Part shown: piece after piece, positions 10,627-42,680 of the stretch
Layout: each line of letters begins with the position of its first letter
How positions within the stretch are numbered: position 1 is the first letter of the stretch
DNA from: Euphorbia lathyris
Lineage: Eukaryota > Streptophyta > Magnoliopsida > Malpighiales > Euphorbiaceae
Assembly: GCF_963576675.1 (NCBI RefSeq)
Contig: NC_088911.1
Location: 60,783,756 to 60,847,755, forward strand
Direction: 5' to 3'
Length of the DNA stretch: 64,000 bases
The notes under the pieces: generated by a model
Seen by the model: the letters and a program-made list of their open reading frames with translations, nothing else
What the model was told of the DNA's origin: nothing
Databases searched by the model: none
Position numbers and translations under genes: made by a program

Positions 10627-11005
10627 TACGCCCCGCGTAAGGTGATATACGCCCCGCGTAAGTGCCCATTCCGTCAGAAATCTCCTGCATATGGACCAAT
10701 TCTATGTCTAATTGTCTCAAATACGCCCTGCGTAGCTGAAGTACGCCCCGCGTAAATGAGTCTCTAATCTTTTTACATTGAAGAACTACCTTTTATGCCC
10801 TACGTAAATGGTGATACGCCCCGCGTATGGAGAGTTGACTCCGGGAGACAATGCAATCTGACTTTCAGGATTAGGCCAATTATTTTTGACATGTGTCATA
10901 CGCCCCGCGTATGCTGAGTCATTTCCACATGGTGCCTGCGGATAAGGCAATTATTTCTGACACCATGTTTTACGCCCCGCGTAAATAATGATACGCCCCG
11001 CGTAT
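10627..11005 (-). promoter_or_regulatory. U3 array of paired TACGCCCCGCGTA inverted repeats (Athila-1)
   Basis: Nine motif copies are seen. Four pairs have start-to-start spacing of 21, 20, 21 and 21 bp. Pair starts are 95 and 72 bp apart on the TATA side. The nearest motif starts 78 bp from the TATA box at 10542-10549. The role is inferred from position only: upstream promoter element of the LTR. Confidence 0.7.
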
Positions 11006-11166
11006 TTGAGTAGATTTTCACTCCTTCCTCGTACCTGAAATACAAATCTTGAGAGCCGAGTTAGCTTGACGTTTTATTTTCTAATACAACAACAACAACA
11101 ACAAAGCCTTAGTCCCGAAATGATTCGGGGTCGGCTAACATGAACCATCATATAAAACCGTGAAAA

Positions 11167-13383: not shown

Positions 13384-14236
13384 TCCTTACTAAGAAGAAG
13401 TCAATTTGGCTCGCATTACCGCCACTCCGATAAGTCACTAAGTGGGATGTTCTCTTCATAAACCATGTGTTCATGATACTCAAGTCATAGGCTGATGCGA
13501 ATTCCAAAATATCATTTCCTGCTTCATTCTTATCTCCAAAACCATACCCTCCATGAACACTCTCAAACCCATCTCGCCTAGAACCCACGTGTCCATTGAG
13601 ATCACCCCCTAGTACCATTTTTTCATCCCTAGGAACCTGTTGCACCACTTCCTCTAAGTCATCCCAAAAAGCCTGTCTTATAGACACATCTAATCCTATT
13701 TGTGGCGCATATGCACTAATGACATTCACAACCTCATCCCCTATCACTAGCTTAACACTCATAATTCTATCGCTCTTCCTAGACACCGCTACTACCTCAT
13801 CAATATACTCCCTATCAATAAGAATACCTACTCCATTTCTACCCTTATCCTTTCCTGAGTACCAAAGCTTATAACCCCAAGGAGCTATCTCTCTAGCCTT
13901 AGCTCCAACCCACTTGGTTTCTTGTAGGCATAATATATTTATTCTCCTCCTCTTCATAACATCTACAATTTCAGCTAATCTTCCTGTCAAAGAACCTATG
14001 TTCCATGTCCCAAAGCGTAACCTACTACCCTTACCCCTACCCCTACCATTACCGTGGACTAGCTTATTTACCCGCAACCCTTGCATATTTGACACCACCC
14101 CCGGGTCCTGGGGTGGCGCGCCGCTTCGGGGCGACGACCTAGCAACCCTTGCACATTTATCACTACACCCGGGTCTAGGAAGTGCAGCGCGTCGCTGAGT
14201 AGGGAACGCCCCAACGGTATTTATATTATGGTTCAT
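13337..14236 (-). CDS. RTE LINE endonuclease part (APE-type)
   Basis: A 299-codon frame. After a Pro/Arg-rich leader of about 75 residues comes an exonuclease-endonuclease-phosphatase fold with recognisable blocks: FGTWNIGSL (Asn), LCLQETKW (catalytic Glu), VISAYAPQ and GGDLNGHVG (Asp/Asn). It would nick target DNA to prime reverse transcription. The frame runs out at YIDCKGDPW, where the downstream ORF (to 11167) continues in another frame with an overlap of 47 bases. RTE elements normally have one continuous ORF, so an A-run indel near 13350 is the likely break. Confidence 0.88.
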
Positions 14237-14524
14237 GTCATAAGATGTGACTAAGTTTTACGCTGGCCGCCACAAACCTACCGCAACCCTCCTCCTTTGT
14301 CCGGGCTTGGGACCGGCTGTAAAGGCCACCAAGTGACCCTCACAGGCGGAGTTGTTTTATTTTCTAATATTAATCAAAAATAAGGAAAATTAACCGAAAG
14401 TAAGGAATTTATTTTTATTTTGTTATTTTATTAAAACACTCTATTTTTGTAATTAAACTTATTTATTTCTTCTAAAATTAAACCGTAAATCACGCTAAAA
14501 GATAGGGACGAAACGCCCCTATCA

Positions 14525-16300
14525 AACGTCCTCGGACTTTAAAGTTTTACTTGTCCTCAAGTAAAATAAATCGAAAGATAAGGGATTGAGATAATTGAGA
14601 AACAAACCGAAGGTTGGTTTTACCAAGTGCGTGATTTCAAAGTTACGGTTTTACACAAAGGTTTCGGTAAGTACCTACGCAAGCAATTGAGTACAAAAAC
14701 TTATTTGAGACCTCCATGATTAAGTTTAATAGGCGATATTAACGGGAGCCGATCATTTTTTTGAGAACTCGGTAGTACCTCACCAAGGAATTTCACTCTT
14801 ACGCTCAATTTTTGGTGGGTCGGTGTTTTAGCACTCTTCTTTGCACTTACTCGAGATCATGTTGAATTTGCATTTTCATCCGGGTTTTTCCTCCTAAAAT
14901 ATGGTTAGGCAATATTAAAAATGAACCCGGAGGGGGGTTGTAATGTGGGTGGCTTCTTTAGTGGTTAGTTTAAAGAAACTTGAGCTCAAAAATACCGTTT
15001 TGTGATTGCACCATATTTTTGTTTATTTCGGCCTTGACGAATTTTACAAAATATACTTCAAAATTGCTCGGGTAGAGGTTGAGAATGCCTTTTTATTTTT
15101 ATCGTATCCTTTGTTTTGATAGAGGCACAAAAACAATATTTTGAGAACTTATGGTGCTCATTTGCTAAGGCCGTGACTTATTTCGGGTAATTCGGGTGCA
15201 ACTTGGTTATGTCGGTATTTGGACAAGAGGAAAAAGGGTTAAATGTTAAAAGGATATTAACAAAAAAGTGGGTTAATAGGCTCGAAGGGGTTTCCTAATG
15301 TTTAATGAAAACGAGAAACATAAATTAAGAAAAATTAGCCTAAGTGGGTTCGGTTTATCATCTATTGCCTTTTTACCAAAAATAAGTGTACTTAACCCGG
15401 TATTGGATGCAAATTCTATGAGTCGAGTGAAGTCAAAGCTCTCGAAAAATTGTGAAAGAATTAGAGTTCTCGTACGAACTCTTTTAGGCTCAAAAATACC
15501 TCACAAAGATTCGGGTTTAAATTGTGTACTATCAAGTCTTCGCTAAATTCTCAACTATCCCATTTTTATTGCCTTTTTAAAGTTCATTATGGAGATGACA
15601 TGTGAGTTAGGACTCAATGCTTTTGTTTAGTACTAGCCTAAGCTTTTCATAAATTCCCTAACTTCAAAACCAAGACTAAAATCTCTTAATTGAATCATTC
15701 CTTTATGTTCCGACGCTTTTATTTTGACGACAAATAACAGAACTTTAGTTAATTTCCGAAGGAGGGATAGTGTGTCGGGAAAATTTAAAAGAGTCAATAA
15801 ATTAGTTTAATTATTTTGTTGTTATTAAATTTTTATTTTTGTTTTTGATAGTGCAAACCAAACTAAGAGTGCAGGGTTGCACGTCCCTCCGCGTTATTTA
15901 AAATGACGCCTATTCCAAGGGCGTCGCAAAAAGAAAACAAAACAAAAACAAAAATAAAGAATGACAAAATAGGACTCTTAGAGTTTAGGTCCTACGCGAG
16001 GCGTGCCCAAGGGGGCGCCCCGCGTAGGAGGTGCATGTCGAGCTGTTTTTGGCCAGAAACTCAAATACGCGAGGCTCACGAAGAGGGGCGCCTCGCTTGT
16101 TTCTATCTCTGAGCCATTTATACAAGAAAAACGGTGGACACGCGGGGCGTAAAAATGGAGTACGCCCCGCGCGGCTTATTTTCTTTTGGAAAAAGTGGGA
16201 TTTGTTTTTCTTTTGATTTTTTTTTATTTAAAAGAAATGACATGAGTCGGTAGGAAAACGAAATGCGGAAAATAAAAGCTGGGAAAGAAAAACTCCCTTA
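14525..16300 (-). other. Athila-1 3' region between coding remnant and 3' LTR
   Basis: No supported protein. On the minus strand it runs from the gag remnant through a motif cluster (15993-16175) to the polypurine tract next to the LTR (CGAGGACG at about 14528-14537). Sequence of the same order and clear similarity occurs at 31782-33240 (Athila-3) and 41220-42680 (Athila-2). A short open frame at 15298-15546 is shared in part by the copy at 32590-32889, but it is not consistently open, so I treat it as non-coding. Confidence 0.7.
15993..16175 (-). repeat. Athila-1 internal motif cluster (73-bp modules)
   Basis: Three pairs of the TACGCGGGGCGTA-type motif start at 15993/16014, 16066/16087 and 16139/16161. 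Within-pair spacing is 21, 21 and 22 bp, and the pairs are 73 bp apart. Spacer sequences differ between modules while the motifs are kept. Confidence 0.75.
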
Positions 16301-17064: not shown

Positions 17065-18845
17065 TGATAGCGCGGCGCCTAGTGTGAGCTTTTCTTACGA
17101 CGATTAAATGTGTATTGCGGTGGATGTGCTATGAATATGGATGTGATCTTTTAAATGTTCTTTAACTCTACTAGACGCTACGACTACTTAGGGGAAAGTG
17201 TACCCCGTCGTATCAAGTAATAATCCGGTTAAGATCGGGTATCGAATCCACGGGATTTATAATTACAAGTATTAGACGACTCGGTTTCGTATGTTATTTA
17301 AGCGGTAATTACTTTGGGGTTAAGTAAGACACAACTACACACTATTCCTCACTATTGGCGACACAGATTTATGTAATGGAAAACTCCACGGAGTGATATG
17401 GGTGACGATAAGTTATAAATATAATATGCAATAACTCCGAATATATTCGGTTGACGATTTACTCTTGCAAAGACGACTACGTGTAGTTCGACCGACCCGT
17501 GAAATACTTAGACTACGTGGTTCCTAGTCAAGGCGTGTCTAATGCTGGGGACCAGAAACTAGGGCCCGTAAGTTCTGTGGCTTGTCAATTCCTACGGTTT
17601 CCGGTTTGTCACTTCCGGTAAGGCAACACCTATATGAGTCCCTAAAGATAGCCCGAATGGCGTCGGAAATCGCGTTCCCCTACACAATAGTCAATTATGA
17701 GTATCAAAACAAGCAATAAACATCAACACGTATATAGAAACGGAAATTGCAAATCATATATTATAAATATGGAAAGCGTAAATGCGGAGTACAACAAAGC
17801 CTAGTACATAGGAAGAGTGCAAGCTAGTTAGCAAGTGAAGAGGGAAGAATCGGCCCTCGGAACTAGCTAACCGGACTCAAGGCCATCTCTTAGGTCTTGG
17901 AGGTGGAACTCTCGAGCTTGGTGGACGAGGATGGAACGGAACTTTGACGAATGATGATCAAATGAACAAGCTCTCAAGGTGGTAGAGTTTTATTACATAA
18001 AAACTGAATCTAAAACTAAAACAACAAGAATTCTATCAAAAGAAGTAAAATGTAGCTATGTACAAGGTTCCAAGAGATCAATAGATAGAAGGTAGAAGGT
18101 AGAAGGTAGAAGGTGTAGAAGGTGTCTAAATGAGTGCTAGTCACTCTTATTTATACATCAAGCTAGGGGTAGAATTGTAACTTCACAAGGTACAAGTATG
18201 GAGCAACATTATTTGGTGCAGAAATCCCATGATACGCCCCGCGTAAGGTGATATACGCCCTGCGTAAGTGCCCATTCCGTCAGAAATCTCCTGCATGTGG
18301 ACCAATTCTATGTCTAATTGTCTCAAATATGCCCTGCGTAGCTGAAGTACGCCCCGCGTAAATGAGTCTCTGATCTTTTTACGTTGAAGAACTACCTTTT
18401 ACGCCCTGCGTAAATGGTGATACGCCCCGCGTATGGAGAGTTGACTCCGGGAGACAATGCAGTCTGACTTTCAGGATTAGGCCAATTATTTCTGACATGT
18501 GTCATATGCCCCGCGTATGCTGAGTCATTTCCACATGGTGCCTGAGGATAAGGCAATTATTTCTGACACCATGTTTTACGCCCCGCGTAAATGACGATGC
18601 GCCCCGCGTAAATAATAATATGCCCCGCGTATTTGAGTAGATTTTCACTCCTTCCTCGTACCTGAAATACAAATCTTGAGAGCCGAGTTAGCTTGACGTT
18701 TTATTTTCTAATATTAATCAAAAATAAGGAAAATTAACCGAAAGTAAGGAATTTATTTTTATTTTGATATTTTATTAAAACACTCTATTCTTCTAAAATT
18801 AAACCGTAAATCACATTAAAAAATAGGGATGAAACGCCCCTATCA
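17065..18845 (-). repeat. Athila-1 right LTR (5' LTR)
   Basis: Terminal TGATAG/CTATCA. It matches the left LTR over its length with scattered differences and a local (AGAAGGT)n expansion near 18090-18120. The minus-strand TATA box is at 18148-18155. The array of TACGCCCCGCGTA motifs lies upstream at about 18232-18640, with one extra motif copy (near 18596) compared with the left LTR. Confidence 0.92.
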
Positions 18846-26735: not shown

Positions 26736-27802
26736 TGATAGGGGCATTTTGTCCCTATCTTTTAGCGTGATTTACGGTTTAATTTTAGATGAAATAAATA
26801 AGTTTAATTGCAAAAATAGAATGTTTTAATAAAATAACGAAATAAAAATAAAATCCGTACTTTCGGTTAATTATCTTTATTTTTTATTAATTTAGGAAAT
26901 AAAAACGTCAAGCTAACTCGGCTCTCGAGAATTGTATTTCAAGTACGAGTAAGGAGCAAAAATCCACCGACATACGCGGGGCGTGGAACACCAAGTCAGA
27001 AATGATTGCTCAATCCGCAGGCACCACGTGGGATTTACCCACTGTCACGCGGGGCGTCCTACCTTACACGCGGGGCGTATGAGCAATGATAAGCTCAATC
27101 ATAAATGTTAGACTGTATGGTCTTCCAAGTCAACTGCTGTCACGCGGGGCGTCCCAACCTACACGCGGGGCGTATATGGGAAGTTCTTCAATCTAAAATT
27201 CCAGGGACTCATATACGTAAGGCGTCCGCTAGGCCACGCGAGGCGTAAAAGACTCATTTCAGGCCATTAAAGCTCAGGAGCTCAACCACGCGGAGCGTAC
27301 CCCAGTCTACGCGGGGCGTGGTTGAGACAACAAGATCTGAATTTGGTCCATATGCAGGAGATTTCTGACGGAATGGGTCAATACGCGGGGGGTCCTCTAC
27401 CATACGCGGGGCGTATCATGGGAATTCTGCAGAAATAATGTATCTCCATGCTTGTATCTTGTGAATTTACAATTTTACCCCTGGCTTGATGTGTATAAAT
27501 AAGGGTGATTAGCACTCATTTAGGCATTCAGATTTTACATAGCAAAACTCTATCACCTTGAGAGCTTGTTCGTTGATTCCGGCATTACGTCAAAGTTCCA
27601 TTCCATCTCCGTTCACCAAGCTCGAGAGTTCCACCTCCAAGTCCTAAGAGACGGCCTTGAGTCCGGTTAGCTAGTTCCGAGGGTGGATTCTTCCCTTTTC
27701 ACTTGCTAATTAGCTTGTACTCTTCCTATGTACTAGGCTTGGTCATAACGAACTTACCATAATATATATTTCATAAGCTCTACCTACGCGCCACGCGCAT
27801 CA
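26736..27802 (+). repeat. Athila-2 left (5') LTR with internal deletion
   Basis: 1067 bp against 1700 bp in the right LTR. About 630 bp corresponding to roughly 43670-44316 is missing, joining 'ctaggcttgg' directly to 'tcataacgaac'. The U3 array (26973-27416) and TATA box (27494-27501) are kept; the deleted part is downstream of the transcription start, in R/U5. Confidence 0.88.
26973..27416 (+). promoter_or_regulatory. U3 array of paired TACGCGGGGCGTA inverted repeats (Athila-2)
   Basis: Eleven motif copies start at 26973, 27046/27067, 27141/27162, 27214/27235, 27287/27308 and 27382/27403. All five pairs have exactly 21-bp spacing. Successive module starts are 73, 95, 73, 73 and 95 bp apart. 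The last motif ends 78 bp upstream of TATAAATA at 27494-27501. The core has ACGCGG, which fits the CGCG box recognised by CAMTA factors in plants; that link is only a possibility. Confidence 0.75.
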
Positions 27803-28132
27803 ATTTCCTAGGGCACGCGGGCGCCCCCTAGGGCACGCCCCGCGTATCCTAGGGGAGTTGCGAATTGCAACTCCCCATGGCAGCTTTTCCTCTTCCACCT
27901 CTCCCATCACTCTTCCCTCTTCCCCAAAAGTCTTTCCCTTTTCTCCACTCCACCTTTTCTACCCTCCAATCACATCCCATCTTTTCCAATTCAAAACTTC
28001 CTCAACCTCCCTCCATCATCAATTTTGATTTAACCACCTCTTAATTACTCTTTAAAAAAACATAAAAATATTAAATATTAATTAAAAACCATAAAAATTA
28101 CGAATATCCTTGGAAAAAACCGATTTTTTTTT

Positions 28133-28364
28133 CACGCGGGACGTATCCCTATGTACGCCCCATGTTCTTGCCTTTCTTCCACCTATTTTTGGCCAGGAGA
28201 CGCGTTACGCGAGGCGTGCCCCAAGGCACGCCCCGCGTTCGGTGGCATTTTTTGCGTTACATAAACTCAAGAGGTGGGATACGCGTGGCGTGGCCCCATC
28301 ACGCCCCGCGTACCCCTCCTAGAATTCCGAAAATCCCTTGGAATTCCACCCCTCTCCTATAAAT
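28133..28364 (+). promoter_or_regulatory. Internal promoter of the Athila-2 accessory ORF
   Basis: Three pairs of the same motif start at 28133/28154, 28206/28227 and 28280/28300 (spacing 21, 21, 20; modules 73 and 74 bp apart). TATAAAT follows at 28358-28364. The ATG is 92 bases further on, after a C/T-rich leader without upstream ATGs. This repeats the LTR design (array, then TATA), so the ORF probably has its own transcript. Confidence 0.7.
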
Positions 28365-28455
28365 TCTCATCCTTTTTCCCCAACTTCTTCCCTCACACTC
28401 ACTCTAAACCCCCCACACTCATTCACAACTCTTCCTTCCTCCTTCACTATCCACC

Positions 28456-29712
28456 ATGACAAGACGCAAGCATGTAGCCGACATGCGCCCCCCGCGGTCC
28501 ACTCGGGCCCGCTCCTCTCATTCCCAACAACACCAATCACCACCACCACCCGAACGAGAAGAAACACCGCCACTCACCCGCCAATATTGGGCTCCTTTTC
28601 ATCTCCTCACCGAAGAAGAAGCCCAATCCTACCAAACACTCTCTGCTGCCCATATCATGGAACTCCCGTACATCAACCGTAGCACTCTCGATCGCTACAA
28701 CGTCGGAGGTGCTTTCGAGGATCGCCTCCGCACTCTTAATTGGCTCGATCACTATCATGCACGCCAACACATTTATCCATCGTTCGTCGTGGAGTTCTAC
28801 ACCACCCTTGAGTCTAATGGAGTTCCCGGTGCCGCCCTCTTCAACTTCCGCCTTCACAACCGCCCCTTTTCCATCAACACACAATGGCTCCGCAACCATT
28901 TTACTATGCAAGTGGATGCCGGCATAGCACATTGGTCCGAGGGTGTCTCCCCTCGTGATTTTTGGACCTCCATCACCGGGTCCGACGATTATGACATCTC
29001 CAATCTCTGTCCCGGTTGCATCCGTGATCCCATCCTCCAACTTCTCCACCGCTTCATCAATTTTTACTTTTCGGGGAAGTCTGAAGCCACCAAGGTCAAT
29101 AAGCACGAGCTTCTGGCCCTCTATTGTTGTGCAAACGGTGTAGCTTACGACCTCTCCTACCTCGTGGCTGTCCACCTCCACCACATGCCCACCTGGAAAC
29201 GTGCCAAACTCGGGTTGGGCCATCTCATCACAATCTTCGCCACCTCCGCTCTTGGTGAAGCTGCCCTTGACCGCCTTCCTAGCTTGGAGCCGCGGCCCTT
29301 GGACAAAAACTTTTTCAAATCACTCAAGCGTCCCACCTCCGGCCCGGGTGAAAGTTCGGGGGCAGCCCAACCCCAAGAGGACGAGGGATCAGACTCGGAC
29401 ATGGGCCTAAACTTTAGCCCACCGCCTAACCATGATTTCAACTCCATATATGCCCGGTTGGACGCCTTGGAAGGCCACCAACGTCAAGATCGCGCCCATT
29501 TTGATGCTCAATTTGCCAATCTCAACACCCGTTTTGACACCCTTGAGGCCAATCGCCTCATGGACCATTCCACCTTCATCACCCGCTTCAACTCCATTGA
29601 GGCCCAACGGCGTGAGGATCGGGCCCATCTCGATGCTCGCTTCGACGCCCTCACCAACGCCTTCTCTACCCACTTTAACGTTCATGGACATCCTCTTCCA
29701 CCTCCACCCTAG
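28456..29712 (+). CDS. Athila accessory protein (ORF1/plant transposon protein type) with coiled-coil tail
   Basis: An intact 418-codon ORF. Residues 1-45 are basic and Ser/Pro/Gln-rich (TRRKH, SHSQQHQSPPPP). Residues 50-300 form a globular part (LTEEEAQSYQTLSAAHIMEL, YPSFVVEFYTTLE, NKHELLALYCCANG) of the kind annotated in many plants as Athila ORF-1 or 'putative plant transposon protein'; this is assigned from memory. After a Gly/Ser/Asp-rich hinge comes a coiled-coil tail with repeated units (RLDALEGHQRQDRAHFDAQF, RFDTLEANRLMDHSTF, RFNSIEAQRREDRAHLDARF). Function is unknown. It is the only coding sequence left in Athila-2 and is free of stops, which hints at retention by selection or recent origin. 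It has its own promoter. Confidence 0.8.
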   Translation: MTRRKHVADMRPPRSTRARSSHSQQHQSPPPPEREETPPLTRQYWAPFHLLTEEEAQSYQTLSAAHIMELPYINRSTLDRYNVGGAFEDRLRTLNWLDHYHARQHIYPSFVVEFYTTLESNGVPGAALFNFRLHNRPFSINTQWLRNHFTMQVDAGIAHWSEGVSPRDFWTSITGSDDYDISNLCPGCIRDPILQLLHRFINFYFSGKSEATKVNKHELLALYCCANGVAYDLSYLVAVHLHHMPTWKRAKLGLGHLITIFATSALGEAALDRLPSLEPRPLDKNFFKSLKRPTSGPGESSGAAQPQEDEGSDSDMGLNFSPPPNHDFNSIYARLDALEGHQRQDRAHFDAQFANLNTRFDTLEANRLMDHSTFITRFNSIEAQRREDRAHLDARFDALTNAFSTHFNVHGHPLPPPP

Positions 29713-29965
29713 TTTCCATTTGTTTTTATGTTTTTCGTTGTTATATGTCTTTCTTTTTTTTGTGTTTATGTTTTTCGTTCGTGTTTTTATGTTTTTATCT
29801 TTTATGTTTATCTTGTACTTTCCTTTACTTTAATATATATTTCCCTTTCGTATGCTTTCTCCTTGTGTTCTTTCGTTTATTTTCCATTTCCGTGTTGTTT
29901 CTTTTATATATTTATTTGAGTTACTAATGAACACGTGGGGCGTACCCCATTCTACGCCCCGCGTG
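29713..29965. other. 3' side of the accessory ORF with one motif pair at the Athila-3 insertion site
   Basis: T-rich sequence, probably the 3' UTR of the accessory transcript, then one motif pair at 29932/29953 (21 bp). Athila-3 inserted inside the second motif of that pair, duplicating GCGTG (29961-29965 and 41045-41049). Confidence 0.65.
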
Positions 29966-31781
29966 TGATGCGCCGCGAGTCTAATGGTGTAATTTACGGA
30001 TACGGAATGTTGGTGTGATATGTGTGAGCTACGGGACTATGGATTTGATCTTTATAAATGCTCTAAATTCACTAAACGTCACGACTACTTAGGGGCAAGT
30101 GTACCCCGTCGTATCAAGTAATAATCCGGTTAAGACCGGGTATCGAATCCACAGGATTTATAATTACAAGTATTAAACTACTCAGTTTCGTAAGTTATTT
30201 AAGCGATGATTACTTTGGGGTAAAGTAAGACACAATGACACGCTATTCCTATAATAGGCGACACAAATTTATGTAGCTAAAACTCTATGAAGTGGGATGT
30301 GTACGATAAGTTATAACTACGATAAATAACGACTCTAAATGTATACGGAAAATGGTTTATTCTTGCAAAGATGACTAAGTATAGTAAGACCGACCCGTTA
30401 AGTGCTTAGACTACGTGATTCCTAGTCAAGGCGTGTCTAATGCGGGGGAACTAGAAATTAGGGCCCGTAAGTTCCGTGGTTTGTCAATCCCTACGGTTTC
30501 CGGAACGTCACTTTCGGTAAGGCAACACCTATATAATTCCCTAAAGATAGCCCGGATGGCGGCGGTAATCGCGTGCTCCTACACAATAGTCAATTATCAA
30601 CGTCAAAACAAGCAATAAACATCAACGCGTAAAGGGAAATAGAGATTATGAATCATAAATTATAAATATGGAAAGTGTATAGATGAAATACAACCACGCC
30701 TAGTACATAGGAAGAGTACAAGCTAATTAGCAAGTAAAAAGGGAGAATCCGCCCTTGGAACTAGCTAACCGGACTCAAGGCCGTCTCCTAGGTCGTGGAG
30801 GTGGAACTCTCGAGCTTGGTGATGAATGATGGAGCGGGACTTCGGTGGGACGTCGGAGCAACCGAACAAGCTTTCGAGGGGGAGAGTCTAACTACAACAA
30901 ACTTGAATCTAAATTACAAGAAAGGAAAAGAGTATAGTTTAGCTCTCTAGCATATAATTGGTGTCCTTTGGAGTTGGAGAGCTACCTATTTATACACATC
31001 AAGCAAGGGTAATATGGTAATTTCACAAAGTAGAAGCATGGGGCAAAATTATTTAGTGCAGAAAACCCATGATACGCCCCGCGTGGATAGGTGTACGCCC
31101 CGCGTAGATGCCCATTTCGTCAGAAATCTCCTGCGTGTGGACCAATTCCTTGTCTATTTGTCCCAAATACGCCCTGCGTAGCTGAGGTACGCCCCGCGTA
31201 TTTTCATTTCTGAAGTTTATTGTTGGAATTGGAGTGTTTTACGCCGTGCGTAAATGGGTTACGCCCCGCGTAAATGTGTCCTTGATCTTTTTGCATTAAA
31301 GAATTGTCTTATACGCCCCGCGTATAGAGTGGTACGCCCTGCGTATAGGTGGTTGACCAAGGGGGACAATGCAGTCTGACTTTCAGGATTAGGCCAATTA
31401 TTGCCGACAAATGTCATACGCCCCGCGTAAAGTGTCATACGCCCCGCGTATGCTGAGTCAATTCCACATGGTGCTTGCGGATAAGGCAATCATTTCTGGC
31501 ACCATGTTTCACGCCCCGCGTAAGGGTTTTTACGCCCCGCGTATGTGGTAGATTCTTGCTCATTCCTTGTACCTGAAATACAACACTTTTAAGAGCCGAG
31601 TTAGCTTGATGATTTTATTTTCTAAACTAATAAAAAATGACGGATTAAACTAAAAGTACGAGATTTATTTTTATTTCTTTATTTATTCAAAATACTTCTA
31701 TTTTTACAATTAAACTTACTTATTCTATCCAAAATCATCCCGTAAATCACGCTAAAAGATAGGGGTAAAATACCCCTATCA
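29966..31781 (-). repeat. Athila-3 left LTR (3' LTR)
   Basis: On the minus strand the TATA box is at 30987-30994 and the upstream array at 31073-31545. Motif starts are 31073/31094, 31168/31188, 31240/31260, 31312/31333, 31417/31438 and 31510/31531. Spacing within pairs is 21, 20, 20, 21, 21 and 21 bp. Confidence 0.94.
31073..31545 (-). promoter_or_regulatory. U3 array of paired inverted repeats (Athila-3)
   Basis: Twelve motif copies in six pairs. Pair starts lie 95, 72, 72, 105 and 93 bp apart. The nearest motif starts 79 bp from the TATA box, as in the other two Athila elements. Confidence 0.72.
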
Positions 31782-33657
31782 AACCTCCTCGGACTTTAAA
31801 GTTTTACTTGTCCTCAAGTAAAAGAAATCGAAAGACAAGGGATTGAGAAAATTAAGAAACAAACCGAAGGTTGGTTTTGCTAAGTGCGGGATTTCAAAGT
31901 TACGGTTTTGTACAAAGGTTTCGGTAAGTGCCTACGCCGACAAAAACTCGTTCGAAACCTCCATGATCAAGATTTAATAGGCAATATCAACGGGGGTTGA
32001 TTATCTTTTGAGAACCTGATAGTACCTCACCAAGGGATTTCACTCTTACGCTCAATGTTTTTGGTGGGTTTGTATTTTATCGCTCTTCTTTGCACTTACT
32101 CGAGACCATGTTGAATTTGCATTGTCATCCGGGTTTTTCCTCCTACATAGTGGTTAGGCAATATTAAAAATGAACCCGGAGGGGGGTTGTAATGTGGGTG
32201 GCTTTTTAGTGGTTAGTTCAAAGACACTCAAGTTCGAAAATGCCGTTTTGTGGTTGCACCTTGTTTGTTTATTTCGGCCTTAGCGATTTTTACAAAATAT
32301 ACTTCAAAATTGCTCGGGTAGAGCTTGAGAATGCCTTTTTGTCTTTTATTGCATCCTTTGTTTTGATAGAGGCACAAAAACAATATTTTGAAGGCTTTTG
32401 ATGCTTGTTTGTTAAGGCCGTGACTTTTTTGAGTGATTTAGGCGCAAATTGATTTTGTCGGTATTTGAACAAGAGGAAAAAGGGTCAAATGTTAAAAGGG
32501 TATTAACAAAAACTTGGTTAATAGGCTCAAGTGGTTTTCCTAATGGTTAATGAAAAATGAAAAAAATGAATTAGGAAAAATTAGCCTAAGTGGGTTCGGT
32601 TTATCATCTATTGCCTTTTTTACCAAAAATAAGTGTACTTAACCCGGTATTAGATGCAAATTCTATGAGTCGAGTGAAGTCAAAGCTCTCGAAAAATTGT
32701 GAAAGAATTAGAGTTCTCGTACGAACTCTTTTAGGCTCAAAAATAGCTCACAAAGATTCGGGTTTTAAATTGTGTACTATCGAGTCTTCGCTAGAGTCTC
32801 GAACATGCCGTTTTTATTGCCTTTTTAAGGTTCATTATGGAGATGTCGATTGGGTTAAGATTCAATGTCTTAGTTTAGTACTATCCTAATCTTTGTACAA
32901 ATTCCATGACTTCAAAATCAAGACTAAAATTTCTTAGTTGAAACATTCCTTTATGTTCCAATACTTTTATTTTTGGGTGACAAATAACGGAACTTTAATT
33001 AATTTCCGAAGGAGAGGTAGCGTGTCGGGAGAATTTAAGGGAAACAATAAATTAGTTTAATTATTTTGTTGTTTATTTTATTTTTATTTTTGTTTTTGGT
33101 AGTGCAAAACAAACGTTTAGTGCGGGGTTGCACGTCCCTCCGCGTGATTTAAAATGATGCCTATTCCAAGGGCATCGCAAAAAGAAATGAAAACAAAAAC
33201 AAAAACAAAAATAAAGGGAAAAAGTAAGAAAAAGAAGACCCATAGGGGTTATGGGTTACGCGGGGCGTGCCCACAGGGGCGCTCCGCGTGACCAATTTAT
33301 TTTGGGTAATTGGTGGGCAGAGACTCAAATACGCGGGGCGCAGGAAGAGACGCCCCGCGTGCTTGAGTTTCTGGACCTTAGAAGACACGGAAAGGCAATC
33401 ATACGCGGGGCGTACGAAGAATTACGCCCTGCGTAAGCAATATCCCAGAAAAAATTTTGGAGTAGGGATACAAATACGCGAGGCGTGCGTAGGGGGACGC
33501 CCCGCGTACTATGTTGATTTGGGATTTGACTTTCCGCGACAGAGATACAAAAGAAGAGAAGAAATTCCAATAGATATATACAGAGGGTTTTGAGAGAACC
33601 AAACCGATGCTACGTTTAAAGTCGGAGTAGCTCGACTTTCCTTCATGATGTGCAAGC
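31782..33657 (-). other. Athila-3 3' region: polypurine tract, conserved non-coding stretch, motif cluster
   Basis: Next to the LTR is the polypurine tract (minus strand CCGAGGAGG at about 31784-31792). A non-coding stretch shared with Athila-1 and Athila-2 follows, with a stem AGAGTTC/GAACTCT near 32711-32730. Then comes a cluster of four motif pairs at 33257/33278, 33330/33349, 33402/33423 and 33475/33496, with pairs 73, 72 and 73 bp apart. Pol ends at 33658. Confidence 0.75.
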
Positions 33658-36600
33658 TTAAGGTGGTGCGAGGGATGTGGTTTCTTTTGGTTGTGGAAGG
33701 TCACTGCCGCGGTATACCTTTAGGCGGTGGCCATTGACTCGTAGGAGTGCATTGTCGGGACCTTGGATTTCAATTGCTCCGGAGGGATGCACGTTGACGA
33801 TGGTATACGGTCCCGACCACCGGCTTTTCAATTTACTGGGGAATAACCGGAGGCGAGAATTGTAGAGGAGGACTTGATCCCCCTTGGTGAACTCCCGAAT
33901 TTGAATATGCTTATCGTGCCACCGCTTGGTACGTTCTTTGTAGAGTTTGGCATTTTCGTATGACCCCAAGCGGAGTTCATCGAGAGTATTGAGTTGGAGG
34001 AGGCGGTGTTCTCCTGCAGCCTGCATGTCAAAATTTAAAAATTTCAGCGCCCAATAGGCTTTATGTTCTAGTTCTACGGGTAAATGACATGACTTTCCAA
34101 AGACTAAACGGTAAGGGGACATCCCGATGGGCGTTTTAAACGCCGTGCGGTAAGCCCAGAGAGCATCGTCGAGCTTCAAGCTCCAGTCTTTCCTAGAGGC
34201 GTTAACCGTTTTTTCTAAAATGCGTTTTAGTTCTCGGTTGGAAACCTCAACTTGCCCACTAGTTTGCGGGTGGTAGGGCGTGGAAACTCGGTGTGCAACC
34301 CCATATTTAAGTAGGAGTTGGTTAAATTGTCGGTTACAAAAGTGGGATCCCCCGTCGGTAATGATAGTCCGAGGAGTCCCGAACCGAGTGAAAATGTTCT
34401 TCTTTATGAATTTCCCTACCACCTTAGAGTCGTTTGAAGGTAAGGCAACGACCTCCACCCATTTGGAGACATAATCAACCGCTACAAGGATGTAAGCGTT
34501 GCCGTGCGACTTAGGGAAAGGTCCCATGAAGTCTATCCCCCATACGTCAAAGAGTTCACAAACTAAGATTCCCTGTTGGAGCATTTTATGTTTTCGGGAA
34601 ATGTTTCCGCTCCTTTGACAGGCGTCACATGATTTGACAAAGTTGTGGGAATCTTTGGATAAGGTAGGCCAATACAATCCACATTGTAAGACTTTTTCCA
34701 TTGTTCGACTAGGGCCAAAATGACCCCCCGGCTCTTGGGTGTGGCACATATGGAGCACATGATTAACTTCGTCTTCCGGTATACACCTACGAATAATGTT
34801 ATCAGTACAACATTTGAACAGAAAGGGTTCTTCCCAAAAATAATGCTTAGCATCGTGAAAGAATTTCTTACGCTGCTCATATGTAAGGTGCGGAGGAAGA
34901 ACATTACTGGCTTTGAAGTTTGCCATATCGGCATACCAAGGTAAAGATGTTACCGCGTAGATTGCCTCGTCGGGAAAGGTCTCCTTAATTTCAATTGCTT
35001 CTGAATTCTCGCCTTGCTCGCCTTGTAAGCGGGAGAGATGGTCAGCCACAACATTCTCCACTCCTTTTTTGTCTCTAATTTCGATGTCGAATTCTTGTAG
35101 GAGTAGGATCCACCGTATCAAGCGTGGTTTGGCGTCCTGATTAGTCATCAAGTACTTGAGAGCCGCGTGGTCAGTGTATACGATAATTTTGGATAACACA
35201 AGGTATGACCTAAATTTATCGAAAACAAAAACAACAGCAAGCATCTCCTTTTCCGTGATGGAATAGTTCTGTTGGGCCTCATTGAGCGTTTTGCTCGCAT
35301 AGTAGATAGGGCGGAAGAGTTTATCCACCCGTTGGCCCAAACATGCACCGACAGCCAAATCACTCGCATCACACATCAATTCAAAGGGGAGGTTCCAATC
35401 GGGTTTTACCATGATAGGTGCATTAATTAACTTATCCTTAAGTGTGTTAAACGCGAGTAAACATTGGTCGGAAAAATTAAATTCTGCATCCTTTATGAGG
35501 AGCTGGGTCAAGGGAGTTGCTATTTTAGAGAAGTCTTTGATGAACCGTCTATAGAACCCCGCATGACCCAAAAAACTTCGAATTCCTTTTACGTTAATTG
35601 GTGGAGGTAGTTTTTCAATTACCTCGATCTTGGCCGGGTCGACCTCGATCCCCTCCCCGGACACTTTGTGTCCCAAAACAATACAATCTTGAACCATAAA
35701 TTGACACTTTTCCCAACTAAGAGTAAGGTTAGTGTCTTCGCAACGTTGGAGGACTTTATCAAGATTGCTCAAACAAGTATTAAAGGACGACCCGAAAACA
35801 GAAAAATCGTCCATGAAGACTTCCATGAAGTCCTCAATCATTTCAGAGAATATAGCCATCATGCATCGCTGAAAGGTGGCGGGGGCGTTACAAAGCCCGA
35901 ACGGCATCCGTCTATATGCAAATGTCCCATATGGACAAGTGAATGTCGTTTTCTCTTGATCCGACGGATCAACGGGAATTTGCATATAGCCGGATAAGCC
36001 ATCGAGGGTGCAAAAGAATTTATGACCCGCCATTCTTTCCAACATTTGGTCGATGAACGGTAAGGGGAAATGATCTTTTCGGGTGGCTTCGTTCAATTTT
36101 CTGTAATCAATGCATACTCGCCACCCGGTTACCTTTCGTGTGGGGATTAATTCCCCTTGATCATTTTCCGTCACCGTTGTGCCTCCCTTTTTGGGGACAC
36201 ATTGGACCGGACTAACCCATGGACTGTCAGAGATAGGGAAGATTATACCTGCGTCGAGGAGTTTGATTACCTCGACTTTCACTACCTCCTTCATATTGGG
36301 GTTAAGCCGTCGTTGCGGCTGCACGGAGGGCTTGACTTTATCCTCCAAAAAGATGCGGTGTGTGCAAATGGTGGGGCTTATCCCTTTTATGTCGTGAATG
36401 GTCCATCCAAATGCGCCTTTGTGTTTTTGTAACACCGTGATAAGTGCTTCCTCCATTTCTGCTGTCAAAAGCGAAGAAATAACAACCGGTAAGAAATTAG
36501 GAGGTTGCAAGAACACGTATTTTAAATTAGGAGGCAAGGGTTTAAGTTCCAAAGTCGGAGGCTCCTCGAGAGAGGATTTCGGCTTTGCTCTGCCATCTCG

Positions 36601-37290
36601 GTTCAAACCCTCAAACCGGCCTCTTGCCAACAAACATCGTTCTATTTCGGAGGAGTACTCAAATGACTTGTTCAATGGCTCCTCATCCAAATGCTCATTA
36701 TTACCTATTCCCGAAGAGGTTTCCGAAAAAGTCCTGTCACAAAATTCTTCAACAAAAAGATCAATAGAGTCTACAGAATTTAGAAAGTTACAATCCACCA
36801 AAGTATTAGATGGAAATTTCATGGAATTGTAAACGTTAAATTCTACCTCTTCGTCTTGCAACCGCAGAATGAGCTTACCTTCGTGGACATCAATAAGAGT
36901 CCTACCAGTTGCAAGAAATGGTCGTCCTAGGAGGATTGGTACCGAGTCGTCTTCCGCCATATCGAGCACTACGAAATCGGCGGGAAAAATGAACTTGTCC
37001 ACTTTTACTAAGACATCCTCCACCACCCCTTTTGGTCGGGCAATGGATCTATCGGCCAGCTGGAGCGTCATATTGGTAGGCTTTGGTTCCCCCAGGCCGA
37101 GCTTCCTGAATACAGATAAAGGCATTAGATTGATGCTAGCACCTAAATCGCATAAAGCTCTTCTAAACTCAACATTTCCAATCGTGCAGGGAATAGAAAA
37201 ACTACCTAAATCCTTGAGTTTAGGGGGGAGTTTGTTTGTTATGATTGTGGAGCATTCCTCCGTGAGCGCTACCGTTTCATTATAGTCCAA
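33658..37290 (-). CDS. Athila-3 pol: protease, reverse transcriptase, RNase H, integrase
   Basis: 1210 codons in the same frame as gag. Aspartic protease has [10 protein letters not shown] at residues about 48-57 in place of the usual D-T/S-G. Reverse transcriptase runs about 310-520 with [10 protein letters not shown] and the catalytic FMDD box. RNase H follows ([24 protein letters not shown]). Integrase has its H-H-C-C zinc finger ([19 protein letters not shown]) and a D-D-E core ([24 protein letters not shown]). The GPY module (RWSGPYTI) is near the C-terminus. No chromodomain is present, as expected for Athila. All catalytic residues are present, so the enzymes could be active if expressed. 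Confidence 0.95.
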
Positions 37291-37311
37291 CTTCCTCTTT
37301 TTGGCGAGGAT

Positions 37312-39075
37312 TTATTTAAGAAACTTCGCGTATGTGGGCATTTGCTCCAATGCTTCCGCAAGGGGAATGTTAATATGAAGTTTCTTAAAGATTTCCAAAA
37401 ACTTGCCATATTGGTGATCCAATTTTTCCTTTTTAAGTCGTTGTGGAAAATGGAGCTTTGGTACGTAAGCTCTAATTGGGTCACACACATTTTTATTCTT
37501 TTCCGAGGAAGTTGCGTGTTCTGGACTCGAACCGGGGTTGCTTACCACTTCCGGTTCATTACTTACCTGTGGAGCTTGGGGGGTCGCCTTCGGAACCGGT
37601 GGTTCCAAACCCTTACCACTACGGAGAGTTATTGCTTGTGCGGTCTCCCAATCTTTCGACCTCGGGTCTTGTTCGGTGTTAGTCGGGGGAGACCCATGCT
37701 GTCCCTTTTGTTGGTGACCTAATTGGGCCACTTGTTGTTCCAAATCCCTGCAAAATGCTTCGTTGTTAGCAAGACGGGATGATATTTCTTTAAGAAGATC
37801 AATTACTATTATGTCTTGCGCACAGTTAGGGGGGTGTGAATTTTTTTCTTCTTGGTTAAGATAAGATTGGCCCAACCCTTGCCCCATAATTTTACCATGG
37901 GGTTCGGATGGTGGCTTCAACATGTTTCGCCTGTTATCGTAAGATGACATGTGTTGAAATCTCCATCCGTGATTGTTAATGTGTGTGTTACGATAAGAGT
38001 TATGATGAGAATTATACCTTTGTTGCTCCCCTACATAACTTACGCTTTCGAAGTCACCGGAAAAAGGGCTACCGGCTTGACAATCCTTACCTTGGTGGCC
38101 ACCACCACAATGAGAGCACATTAAGTTTTGTGCTGAGTTTTGGAGGCTCATTTGCACCATTAAGGCATCCAGTTTTTTGTTCATTTCGACCATAAAGGTG
38201 GTAGGAGCCTCGTCTTCTATGGCAAAGGTTTGGTGTTGCGAGGAGTCGGCAAGCCGATCTTCTTGCCATTGTATGCTTTTCTTAGCTAATTCGTGAATGA
38301 GCTCATATGCCTCGCTTGCCGACTTACGAAACAGATCCCCACCTGCGGCGGAATCAACAATTGCACGATTAGTCGGTGTTAGACCATGATAAAAAGTACT
38401 TACTAAATCGTGCTTAGGTATGTCGTGATGGGGACAGTTTCGGAGTAGCTTTCGGAACCTAGCCCAAGCTGAGTGAAGGGCCTCGTATCTAAGTTGCCGA
38501 AAGGAAGTGATATCTTTCTGTAATTTAACCGTTTTAGAGGGCGGGAAGTAGTAAGATAGGAATTCCTTTTCGAGTTCCTTCCATGATGTGATTGATCCCG
38601 CCTCTAATGAGTGCAACCATTCCAACGCTTGCCCTGTCAAGGAAAAAGGAAAAAGTTTTAGTTGGACGGCCTCTACCGGAACATTATTTTGCCGTGAAGT
38701 TTCGGCACACATAAGAAATTTATCAAGGTGTTCGTTAGGGTTTTCATGGGGTTCCCCTCCGAATTGACCAAATTGTTGGATTAATTGGATCATGCTAGGC
38801 TTTATTTCAAATGTGTCGACCGGAATGGTGGGGGCAACGATTCCATGGCGGATTTGAGGACGATGTGGAGCAAGAATCTCCAATATTGAACGCGTGTCGT
38901 TGCCTTCACCATTACGATCGTGATTCATAGGTTGTTCCGGCCCCCGTTGGTTGAGCTCGGGCTGATTAGCTCCATCGTGGAGATTTGTCATTCTTTCTCT
39001 ATGTAACCTACAAAGAGTACGTTCAATTTCGAGATCAATAGGCACGAGAGAATCACTTTTAGATCGGGTGTGCAT
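37312..39075 (-). CDS. Athila-3 gag
   Basis: 587 codons. The retrotransposon gag (capsid) domain is at about residues 110-270 (NPNEHLDKFLMCAETSRQNN, LTGQALEWLHSL, WKELEKEFLSYYF). A CCHC-like knuckle (CSHCGGGHQGKDC) is at about 318-330. The C-terminal region contains SSRLANNEAFCRDLEQQV, shared with Athila-1. Translation starts 130 bases from the primer site. A TAA at 37312-37314 ends it, but the same frame runs on into pol without further stops. In related elements gag and pol are continuous, so the stop is either a mutation or a read-through point. Confidence 0.92.
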   Translation of the reverse strand: MHTRSKSDSLVPIDLEIERTLCRLHRERMTNLHDGANQPELNQRGPEQPMNHDRNGEGNDTRSILEILAPHRPQIRHGIVAPTIPVDTFEIKPSMIQLIQQFGQFGGEPHENPNEHLDKFLMCAETSRQNNVPVEAVQLKLFPFSLTGQALEWLHSLEAGSITSWKELEKEFLSYYFPPSKTVKLQKDITSFRQLRYEALHSAWARFRKLLRNCPHHDIPKHDLVSTFYHGLTPTNRAIVDSAAGGDLFRKSASEAYELIHELAKKSIQWQEDRLADSSQHQTFAIEDEAPTTFMVEMNKKLDALMVQMSLQNSAQNLMCSHCGGGHQGKDCQAGSPFSGDFESVSYVGEQQRYNSHHNSYRNTHINNHGWRFQHMSSYDNRRNMLKPPSEPHGKIMGQGLGQSYLNQEEKNSHPPNCAQDIIVIDLLKEISSRLANNEAFCRDLEQQVAQLGHQQKGQHGSPPTNTEQDPRSKDWETAQAITLRSGKGLEPPVPKATPQAPQVSNEPEVVSNPGSSPEHATSSEKNKNVCDPIRAYVPKLHFPQRLKKEKLDHQYGKFLEIFKKLHINIPLAEALEQMPTYAKFLK

Positions 39076-39204
39076 AAAGTAAATAATTAAAGATTTATTA
39101 ACAGAAGAACAATGTTAGCCAATGTATATATAAACACTTTATACAAAAAGAATGCTCAAACTAACTATGAAACGTTTTTGTCTAATATTGTAGGAAATTA
39201 TAAA

Positions 39205-39222
39205 TCCCCGGCAACGGCGCCA
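39205..39222 (-). other. Athila-3 primer-binding site (tRNA-Asp type)
   Basis: Identical 18-base site to that of Athila-1 (17041-17058), placed six bases inside the 5' LTR that begins at 39229. Confidence 0.92.
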
Positions 39223-39228
39223 AAAACT

Positions 39229-41044
39229 TGATGCGCCGCGAGTCTAATGGTGTAATTTACGGATACAGAATGTTGGTGTGATATGTGTGAGCTACGGGAC
39301 TATGGATTTGATCTTTATAAATGCTCTAAATTCACTAGACGTCACGACTACTTAGGGGCAAGTGTACCCCGTCGTATCAAGTAATAATCCGGTTAAGACC
39401 GGGTATCGAATCCACGGGATTTATAATTACAAGTATTAAACTACTCGGTTTCGTAAGTTATTTAAGCGATGATTACTTTGGGGTAAAGTAAGACACAATG
39501 ACACGCTATTCCTATAATAGGCGACACAAATTTATGTAGCTAAAACTCTATGAAGTGGGATGTGTACGATAAGTTATAACTACGATAAATAACGACTCTA
39601 AATGTATACGGAAAATGGTTTATTCTTGCAAAGATGACTAAGTATAGTAAGACCGACCCGTTAAGTGCTTAGACTACGTGATTCCTAGTCAAGGCGTGTC
39701 TAATGCGGGGGAACTAGAAATTAGGGCCCGTAAGTTCCGTGGTTTGTCAATCCCTACGGTTTCCGGAACGTCACTTCCGGTAAGGCAACACCTATATAAT
39801 TCCCTAAAGATAGCCCGGATGGCGGCGGTAATCGCGTGCTCCTACACAATAGTCAATTATCAACGTCAAAACAAGCAATAAACATCAACGCGTAAAGGGA
39901 AATAGAGATTATGAATCATAAATTATAAATATGGAAAGTGTATAGATGAAATACAACCACGCCTAGTACATAGGAAGAGTACAAGCTAATTAGCAAGTAA
40001 AAAGGGAGAATTCGCCCTTGGAACTAGCTAACCGGACTCAAGGCCGTCTCCTAGGTCGTGGAGGTGGAGCTCTCGAGCTTGGTGATGAATGATGGAGCGG
40101 GACTTCGGTGGGACATCGGAGCAACCGAACAAGCTCTCGAGGGGGAGAGTCTAACTACAACAAACTTGAATCTAAATTACAAGAAAGGAAAAGAGTATAG
40201 TTTAGCTCTCTAGCATGTAATTGGTGTCCTTTGGAGTTGGAGAGCTACCTATTTATACACATCAAGCAAGGGTAATATGGTAATTTCACAAAGTACAAGC
40301 ATGGGGCAACATTATTTAGTGCAGAAAACCCATGATACGCCCCGCGTGGATAGGTGTACGCCCCGCGTAGATGCCCATTCCATCAGAAATCTCCTGTGTG
40401 TGGACCAATTCCTTGTCTATTTGTCCCAAATACGCCCTGCGTAGCTGAGGTACGCCCCGCGTATTTTCGTTTCTGAAGTTTATTGTTGGAATTGGAGTGT
40501 TTTACGCCGTGCGTAAATGGGTTAGGCCCCGCGTAAATGTGTCCCTGATCTTTTTGCATTAAAGAATTGTCTTATATGCCCCGCGTATAGAGTGGTACGC
40601 CCTGCGTATAGGTGGTTGACCAAGGGGGACAATGCAGTCTGACTTTCAGGATTAGGCCAATTATTGCCGACAAATGTCATACGCCCCGCGTAAAGTGTCA
40701 TACGCCCCGCGTATGCTGAGTCAATTCCACATGGTGCTTGCGGATAAGGCAATCATTTCTGGCACCATGTTTCACGCCCCGCGTAAGGGTTTTTACGCCC
40801 CGCGTATGTGGTAGATTCTTGCTCATTTCTTGTACCTGAAATACAACACTTTTAAGAGCCGAGTTAGCTTGACGATTTTATTTTCTAAACTAATAAAAAA
40901 TGACGGATTAAACTAAAAGTACGAGATTTATTTTTATTTCTTTATTTATTCAAAATACTTCTATTTTTACAATTAAACTTACTTATTCTATCCAAAATCA
41001 TCCCGTAAATCACGCTAAAAGATAGGGGTAAAATACCCCTATCA
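39229..41044 (-). repeat. Athila-3 right LTR (5' LTR)
   Basis: 1816 bp, the same length as the left LTR. The minus-strand TATA box is at 40250-40257 and the array at about 40336-40808. Two motif copies carry point changes (near 40524 and 40575) relative to the left LTR. Confidence 0.94.
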
Positions 41045-41049
41045 GCGTG

Positions 41050-42680
41050 CCTCGCCGTTTTTCCCGTATAACTGGCCCAGAGCTCGGAACACGCGGGGCG
41101 CCCCTCTTAGTGCGCCCCACGTATCTGAGTCTCTGGCCCAAACTGGCTTCAAACGCACCTCCTACGCAGGGCGTCCCCCTTGGTACGCCACGCGTAGGAC
41201 CTGACCTTCGGGCCATTTCATCATTTAAACTCCATCTTTATTTTTATTTTTGTTTTTCTTTTCTTTTGCGACGTCCTTGGAATAGACGTCATTTTAATAA
41301 CGCGGAGGGCCGTGCAACCCCGCACTTACCGTTTGTTTTGCACTAACAAAAATAAAAATAAAAATCAAATAAGCAACAAAATAATTAAACTAATTTATTG
41401 ATTCTTAAATTTTTTTCCGACACACTACCCCCCCTCGGAAATTAATTAAAAGTTCCGTTATTTGTTCTTAAATAAAAAGACGTTAACACAAAGGATCGGT
41501 TTGATTAAGAAATTTTAGTCTTGATTCTGAAGTTATAGAATTTATGCAAAGCCTAGGTTCGTACTAAATAAAAACATCGAGTCCTAACCCACAGGTCATC
41601 TCTATAATGAAATTTAAAAAGGCAATAAAAATGGGATAGTTGAAAATTTGACGAGAGCTTGAACGTACACAATTTAACCCGAAATATTTTGTGAGGTATT
41701 TTTGAGCCTAAAAGAGTTCGTACGAGAACTCTATTTCTTTCACAATTTTTTCGAGGGCTTTAACTCCACTCGATTCATAGAATTTGCACCTAATACAGGG
41801 TTAAGTACACTTATTTTGGTAAAAATGGCAATAGACGATAAAACGAACCCACTTAGGCTAATTCTTTTCTTAACTTATTTTTCTCGTTTTCATTAACCTC
41901 TAGGAAACCCCCTCGAGCCTATTAACCGACTTTTTTTTGTTATTACCCTTTTAACATTTAACCCTTTTTCCTCTTGTTTGAATACCAACAAAATCAAATC
42001 GCACCAAAACTACCCGAAATAAGCCAAGGCCTTAATAAGTAAGCACCATAAGCTTTCGAAATCGTCTTTGTACCGCTCTCAAAACAAAAAGAAAAAGAAA
42101 AACACAATAAAGAGCAAAAGGCATTCTCAAGCTCCACCCGAGAAATTTCGAGTTATATTTTACGAACTTACTAAGGCCAAAATAAAAACACGGTGCGATC
42201 ATCAAAATGGTGTTTGAACTCGAGTTTCTAAAAATTAACCACTAAAAATCCACCCACATTACAACCTCCCTCCGGGTTCATTTTTAATATTGCCTAGACC
42301 ATAACATAGGAGGAAAAACCCGGATGAAAATGCAAACTCAAAGTGACTTCGAGTAAGTGCAAAGGAGAGTGCAAAAAAACACCGACCCACCGAAATTTGA
42401 GCATAAGAGTAAAATCCCTTGGTGAGGTACTATCGGGTTCTCAAAAGATAATCGACACCCATTAATATTGCCTATTAAATTTGATCATGGAGATCTCAAA
42501 CAAGTTTTGGTTACTCATTTGTTTGCGTAGGTACTTACCGAACACTTTGCTTAAAACTTTAGCTTCAGTATCACGCACTTGGTAAAACCAACCGACGGTT
42601 TGTTTCTTAATGATCTCAATCCCTTGTCTTTCGATTTCTTTTACTTGAGAACAAGTAAAACTTTAAAGTCCGAGGAGGTT
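41050..42680 (+). other. Athila-2 3' region and polypurine tract
   Basis: Motif pairs at 41090/41111 and 41163/41184 (21 bp; 73 bp apart) continue the grid that Athila-3 interrupted at 29965. Non-coding sequence shared with Athila-1 and -3 follows, including the stem element near 41716-41735. The polypurine tract CGAGGAGG (42671-42678) lies two bases before the LTR. Confidence 0.75.

Follow-up and report, generated by a model that had tools for sequence, protein, structure and literature searches.

Self-BLAST of the window, by which we mean the whole 64-kb stretch of DNA that was analysed, revealed three related LTR retrotransposons, called here A, B and C, whose coordinates are collected in the table together with those of the arrays, promoters and open reading frames (ORFs) discussed below. 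Element C, which is the 'Athila-2' of an earlier note on this DNA, has no pol of its own that could be found within the window, and its 5′ LTR is shorter than its 3′ LTR, about 655 bp being missing between 27743 and 27744. The LTRs of element B are 98.8% identical over 1816 bp, and its gag and pol are in one frame with a single stop codon between them (37309-37314). Its target site duplication (TSD; 29961-29965 and 41045-41049) is the right arm of the element C palindrome at 29953; in other words, element B was inserted into an arm of one of the palindromes described below. A survey, in the part available to us, reports that insertion targets are slightly biased to palindromes, a bias that of four families was significant in Athila (PMC6911290). 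What splits the 3′ LTR of element A is a LINE-like insertion (11087-14353) with endonuclease and reverse-transcriptase ORFs.

The pol domains of element B follow the Ty3/gypsy order (Asp_protease_2, RVT_1, RT_RNaseH, Integrase_H2C2, rve), with a single RNase H region at E≤0.001 and no additional RNase H, as expected of the Athila clade (Ty3/gypsy, OTA). According to the accessible text of PMC6317226, an additional RNase H domain marks Tat, and most OTA elements have an extra ORF behind pol. Behind its pol, element B is without an ORF of at least 150 amino acids; element C has an ORF with a weak PF20167 match. Among the 120 relatives listed for the element B reverse transcriptase, the top identity, 92% with 87% of the query covered, was to Euphorbia lathyris P0004, which makes a spurge or a relative of the spurges the probable host. 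An Athila-like placement of the family, and the Athila label for its elements, seem reasonable.

Table 1. Elements, palindrome arrays, promoters and ORFs in the window (gaps in bp)
Feature	Coordinates	Strand	Remarks
Element C	26736-44380	+	ATGAT flanking both ends
5′ LTR, element C	26736-27802	+	self-BLAST, ends and flanks read
3′ LTR, element C	42680-44380	+	self-comparison
Element B	29966-41044	-	TSD GCGTG; nested in element C
gag and pol ORFs, element B	33658-39114 (gag 37312-39114, pol 33658-37311)	-	
5′ LTR, element A	17065-18845	-	self-comparison
3′ LTR, element A	9481-11086 plus 14354-14525	-	split by insertion
U3 array, element C 5′ LTR	26973-27415	+	11 palindromes; gaps 73,21,74,21,52,21,52,21,74,21
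U3 array, element C 3′ LTR	42918-43338	+	10 palindromes; 21 bp shorter at last pair than in 5′ LTR
U3 array, element B 5′ LTR	40336-40806	-	12 palindromes; gaps 21,72,21,84,21,52,20,52,20,74,21
U3 array, element B 3′ LTR	31073-31543	-	12 offsets identical to 5′ LTR
U3 array, element A 5′ LTR	18233-18631	-	10 palindromes
U3 array, element A 3′ LTR	10627-11004	-	9 palindromes
Internal array 1, element C	28133-28312	+	6 palindromes, 3 inverted pairs; gaps 21,52,21,53,20
Internal array 2, element C, first pair	29932-29965	+	element B inserted directly behind
Internal array 2, element C, remaining 4 palindromes	41090-41196	+	gaps 21,52,21
Internal array, element B	33257-33508	-	behind pol; 8 palindromes, 4 inverted pairs; gaps 21,52,21,53,19,52,21
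Internal array, element A	15993-16173	-	6 sites (16087 degenerate); gaps 22,52,21,52,21
TATA box TATAAATA, LTR promoter, element C	27494-27501	+	78 bp past array
TATAAAT, candidate internal promoter, element C	28358-28364	+	45 bp past internal array 1
Accessory ORF, element C	28456-29712 (28456-29709 without stop)	+	from first Met

The earlier note had described eleven inverted repeats in the U3 of the element C 5′ LTR, and all eleven were located, with starts at 26973, 27046, 27067, 27141, 27162, 27214, 27235, 27287, 27308, 27382 and 27403. The motif is TACGC-NNN-GCGTA, with the core ACGC-NNN-GCGT; ten of the copies have at most three mismatches to TACGCGGGGCGTA, and the eleventh (27214) retains 8 of the 10 arm bases. 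Over the window, 90 matches with at most three mismatches were counted, as against the 5, 7 and 6 of three order-1 Markov sequences of equal length. The five pairs, each said to be 21 bp apart, are all so spaced (5/5), the steps of 73, 95, 73, 73 and 95 bp between module starts were recovered as stated, and the placement in U3 upstream of a TATA box, with 78 bp between the array and the box, was borne out. The spacing rules are, moreover, repeated in other copies within the window: TACGC arrays of 9 to 12 sites occur in the U3 of every one of the six LTR copies, and four more arrays are internal to elements A, B and C. In the U3 arrays the asymmetric GGG centre has the same orientation in every site, so that the pairs are direct; the pairs of the internal arrays consist of oppositely oriented motifs. 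The phase is retained with the second motif either way. Internal array 2 of element C has six sites, its gap across the element B insertion amounting by arithmetic to about 53 bp when the 5-bp TSD is not counted. A lone motif, CACGCCCCGCGTA, lies at 27834-27846, between the element C 5′ LTR and internal array 1; it is 299 bp, i.e. 28.6 turns, before that array and thus out of register, and it was excluded from the arrays and from the phase tests.

The helical repeat of B-DNA is 10.40-10.50 bp. When periods from 6 to 20 bp were scanned, the best one fell between 10.40 and 10.50 bp in 9 of the 9 TACGC arrays tested, with a resultant length R of 0.948 to 0.999; the element B 5′ LTR stood for both LTRs of that element, their offsets being equal, and the scan used four of the six sites in internal array 2 of element C and five of the six in the internal array of element A. 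This agrees with the 10.5-bp period anticipated in the earlier note, as does its proposal that the motifs face one side of the helix, R being 0.98 at 10.5 bp for the element C 5′ LTR array. At 11.0 bp, R was 0.01-0.31 over the six arrays examined, the U3 arrays of the three elements giving 0.08-0.31. The 26 pair gaps of six arrays comprise twenty of 21 bp, four of 20, one of 19 and one of 22, and none of the 21 inter-pair gaps of the same arrays deviates by more than 0.11 turn from a whole number of turns of 10.45 bp; twelve of these 21 measure 52-53 bp and the remainder, all in U3, 72-74 or 84 bp. Against uniform random gaps the observed register has a p of 5×10−5 (the floor) to 3×10−4, and, if the pairs are kept and only the inter-pair gaps are randomised, of 0.00025 to 0.039 over the six arrays. 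These values are not independent and, because the arrays are related (one family, one window, common ancestry), they are not to be multiplied. Distinct spacings taken alone give p 0.017 for 21 and 52 bp, 0.003 with 84 bp and 2.8×10−4 with 73 bp too, although 73 is 21 + 52. The best fit is at 10.4 bp for A and B and at 10.5 bp for the element C 5′ LTR array, so coherence is sure between neighbours and less so over 450 bp.

From the centre of the last motif to the TATA box the distance is 83.5-84.5 bp in 6 of the 6 U3 copies, near 8 turns, and 51.5 bp, near 5 turns, for internal array 1 of element C. Within 400 bp past the last motif, TATA[AT]A is absent in three of the four internal arrays; in element A a TATAAAT is found inside a spacer of the internal array. 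The ORF behind the candidate internal promoter of element C encodes a product with a basic N-terminus and a weak match to PF20167 (E 4.3×10−5, 23.9 bits, below the curated Pfam cut-off of 45). In a single-sequence structural model (mean pLDDT 44) a long C-terminal helix is predicted at residues 328-409, with block means of 50-86, the rest being unreliable. None of 3369 candidates was a relative of the product at E≤0.001, and among the 120 pol relatives listed there was no match to it at E≤1; PF20167 was present in three of these 120 and above the curated cut-off in two of the three.

How the arrays came about can be read in part from their spacers. Those belonging to 52-bp gaps are similar at p<0.01 in 23 of 78 pairs, orthologous pairs included and several on the reverse strand, and the 73 non-orthologous pairs have a mean identity of 0.418 versus 0.340 after shuffling. 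This weak residual similarity argues for growth of the arrays by old module duplication, and a single module of some 73 bp, which underwent duplication and inversion in the distant past, was probably the ancestor of both the U3 and the internal arrays. A fresh tandem duplication was rejected, the within-array spacer identities by length class being 0.57/0.44 (observed/shuffled) in A, 0.43/0.41 in B and 0.50/0.41 in C for 8-bp spacers (sd 0.13-0.16), 0.62/0.51 in B (one pair, clearly above) and 0.51/0.50 in C for 39-bp spacers, and 0.54/0.50, 0.49/0.50 and 0.54/0.49 in A, B and C for spacers of 59-61 bp (sd 0.03-0.04). Local matches between U3 modules were seen in A (24 of 25 columns, p 0.002) and, shorter, in C (p 0.008). 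Between elements, identity in motif columns is 84% (B-C), 85% (A-C) and 92% (A-B), in a comparison that favours motifs by dropping each column with a motif in just one of the two elements, and in spacers it is 64%, 69% and 78%; the flanks have 83%, 86% and 76% before the array and 79%, 89% and 80% after it. That spacers are less alike than motifs between elements also speaks against fresh tandem duplication. The earlier statement that the spacers differ in sequence and were not freshly duplicated is thus partly right: they are no fresh duplicates, but they are related, as diverged copies of old modules. The U3 spacers of A, B and C are strongly depleted in CpG, with 3-4 in 277-325 bp, the motifs retain theirs and the LTR flanks are mostly not CpG-poor; the ratio of observed to expected CpG is 0.23-0.38 in U3 spacers, 1.09-1.19 in whole arrays and 0.55-2.14 in flanks.

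Spacer length behaves differently from spacer sequence in the internal arrays, where 8 of the 8 inter-pair spacers measured (the omitted gap is the one interrupted by element B) are 39-40 bp long with an identity near random (0.428 versus 0.335 shuffled, 27 non-orthologous pairs). Under a neutral model whose indel spectrum was taken from the LTR flanks, with an estimated 0.06 indels or so per substitution, such lengths have a P of 0.008-0.06 for 6-7 modules and d of 0.8-1.2, and of 0.13-0.18 at d 0.5. Since length was kept near sequence saturation, there is moderate support for a length constraint on the internal spacers, to which this test was confined. An earlier version with 13 spacers (P 0.0025-0.02, 8 modules) was set aside as biased, its U3 spacers having been chosen by their 52-bp gap.

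The arrays are, then, real, recurrent and helix-phased; in this Athila-like family they accompany promoters of two kinds, and they point to one binder for the LTR promoter and the internal promoter. As to what they do, we consider it fairly probable, judging from sequence and spacing, that the palindromes are putative double-stranded DNA sites for a palindrome-binding regulator at both. A dimeric, or otherwise palindrome-reading, protein would bind them and control the promoters of the element. The sites are paired two turns apart, with pairs about 5, 7 or 8 turns from their neighbours, and such near-whole-turn spacing would put the dimers on one face of the helix, able to contact one another through short loops or in a filament. 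The U3 row of sites stops some 8 turns ahead of the TATA box of the LTR, and the second row about 5 turns ahead of the one preceding the accessory ORF. We infer the regulator, its cooperativity and an outcome of either activation or shielding from silencing; as the sites have been kept by the element, we favour activation or anti-silencing. At this point we may only speculate further: it is quite improbable, though worth stating, that the accessory protein, with its basic tail, PF20167-like helical domain and predicted long C-terminal coiled coil, would itself be the sequence-specific binder, polymerising on the phased palindromes at the LTR and at its own internal promoter and un-silencing or switching on the copies that bear them, in a VANC-like, self-propagating manner in which helical register would serve as recognition code. 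If true, this would be an anti-silencing system of VANC type in an LTR retrotransposon.

The main alternative is a neutral history, in which a founder module had gaps of 21 and 52 bp by chance and duplication, inversion and recombination between motifs copied its spacing, the phase being unselected. The residual similarity of spacers, reverse strand included, and the local matches between U3 modules of A and C are what such a history would leave behind. So are the differences in length between copies, which show that recombination between motifs is active and can change length without selection on phase: in A the two LTRs differ by exactly 21 bp, in C they do likewise, and A differs from B by 72 bp. 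Overall, the arrays of A, B and C differ by 21, 42, 71-72 and 9-12 bp, plus 1-4 bp, mostly explicable by such recombination, and their flanks by 12, 23, 25, 54, 64, 67 and 114 bp, plus 1-4 bp (the 726-bp gap from the shortened element C 5′ LTR was left out). Indel density between B and C is also not lower in the array (8 in 418-439 aligned bp) than in the flanks (16 in 1215 bp). However, the founder spacing itself already fits n × 10.45 bp, as the p values for distinct spacings indicate, internal spacer length was kept near saturation, and one spacer of 84 bp in place of 74 differs inside the spacer by 10 bp, about one helical turn, which is the only one of the larger changes that cannot be explained by recombination between motifs. 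We therefore regard the neutral history as possible but rather doubtful.

Two further explanations seem less probable. The inverted pairs could form hairpins once transcribed, which would signal packaging or translation or give rise to small RNAs that act in silencing, in line with a proposal for Sireviruses, where small RNAs map to the palindromic regions (Bousios 2016, as described in the available part of PMC10760457). Predicted folding is indeed strong in two internal arrays (z -5.3 for 28125-28320; z -10.2 for 33245-33520, minus strand), as it must be, because inverted pairs have to fold; the U3 array with its direct pairs, however, folds barely better than shuffled sequence (z -1.83, with 5 of 100 shuffles as good), the outer flanks of 12 inverted pairs are but slightly complementary (5.1/10 versus 4.1 when mispaired, p 0.022), and there is no evident RNA reason for a 10.4-10.5 bp rule across hundreds of bp. 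We thus think a role at the RNA level unlikely, and the register predicts effects of half-turn versus full-turn insertions that separate DNA-binding from RNA-hairpin explanations. Least credible of all, in our opinion, is rotational positioning of nucleosomes, by which G+C-rich words every few turns would fix the face that the DNA turns to the histones. A single nucleosome can accommodate spacings of 21, 52 and 73 bp, and the earlier note had pointed to 73 bp as half a nucleosome core, but such a mechanism is not supported by the U3 arrays of the three elements, where R at 10.2 bp is 0.03-0.08, although it reaches 0.59-0.60 in three shorter internal arrays; a conserved 13-bp palindrome would, besides, exceed the specificity that a rotational signal needs.

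The window contains another array that is unrelated to those with TACGC: on the minus strand at 48453-48684, TTGGGCG-NN-CGCCCAA palindromes, mostly 20-24 bp apart, precede a TATAAAA at 48429. Both kinds of array are upstream of TATA, but the GGGCG one has a best period of 11.05 bp (R 0.87, 8 sites) and no clear 10.5 register. It is near a Ty3/gypsy element (53663-59881), whose partial PF13456 match is read as the putative extra RNase H of Tat. Tandem repeats were also observed at 49342-49627 (39-bp unit, 7.3 copies), at 50400-50610 (an array of the ACGTGAATAGT type) and at 60217-60354 (a perfect 69-bp duplication).

Pattern searches for Athila relatives elsewhere gave 4 confirmed out of 107 matches in genome contigs and, in viral contigs, 1 and 49 stretches fitting the patterns, none of them confirmed. 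A pattern scan of viral contigs returned 3 stretches, the one viewed (L002) being a G+C-rich direct repeat that looks coding. Three contigs from bacterial assemblies (L004, L005 and L006) encode a plant-like Athila pol with 58% identity, probably through contamination by plant DNA; L004 and L005, which are assigned to two genera, share 99.6% identity along 9025 bp. In the sequence of these three contigs, which shows no LTR-like long self-match and hence no recognised U3, there is neither a TACGC motif that retains at least 8 of the 10 arm bases nor a G+C-rich palindrome arm present three times. Another contig (L007), 36% identical, has three weak hits, each of them single. Within the literature searched, the letters of the motif were found in five papers, one of which deals with plants. 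The lettuce tandem-repeat probe Oligo-ls350, as given in the accessible part of PMC11598091, contains TACGCGGGGCGTG, a variant of the TACGC motif, which may be due either to chance or to a related element in Asteraceae.

Among known systems the closest is that of the RM boxes of Sireviruses. These are likewise short CpG-bearing palindromes in high copy number. Most of them lie in the LTR's upper half, a short way upstream of the TATA box, and more copies precede the env-like ORF, as the internal array here stands before the accessory ORF; in the text of that study available to us its authors name no common binder for palindrome arrays in plant LTRs and no helical spacing rule was found (PMC2829016). 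According to the same text the core is CGG-CCG in all but Tnd-1 (PMC2829016), whereas here it is ACGC-NNN-GCGT and CGG-CCG is absent as a symmetric core. The Sirevirus feature of a palindrome cluster upstream of the LTR TATA was found in 6 of the 6 LTR copies, but the Sirevirus host is Ty1/copia and element B is Ty3/gypsy.

VANDALs belong to the MULE type of DNA transposons. The target repeats of their VANC proteins are also short motifs dense in non-coding regions of plant elements, spread by tandem duplication and rapidly diverging, and they are bound by an element-encoded protein (PMC5735166, PMC10398659, as far as available), whereas the binder proposed here is a candidate. The motif YAGTATTAY is not palindromic, unlike TACGC-NNN-GCGTA, and the available text on VANDAL repeats makes no mention of spacing, palindromes or periodicity (PMC5735166). 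Helical phasing of plant LTR palindromes was not reported within the literature searched. The kind of array is thus already known and belongs with the palindromic cis-regions of Sirevirus LTRs (PMC2829016, in its accessible part); what is new, within the literature searched, is the helical register, the grammar of pairs and modules, and the occurrence in a Ty3/gypsy family.
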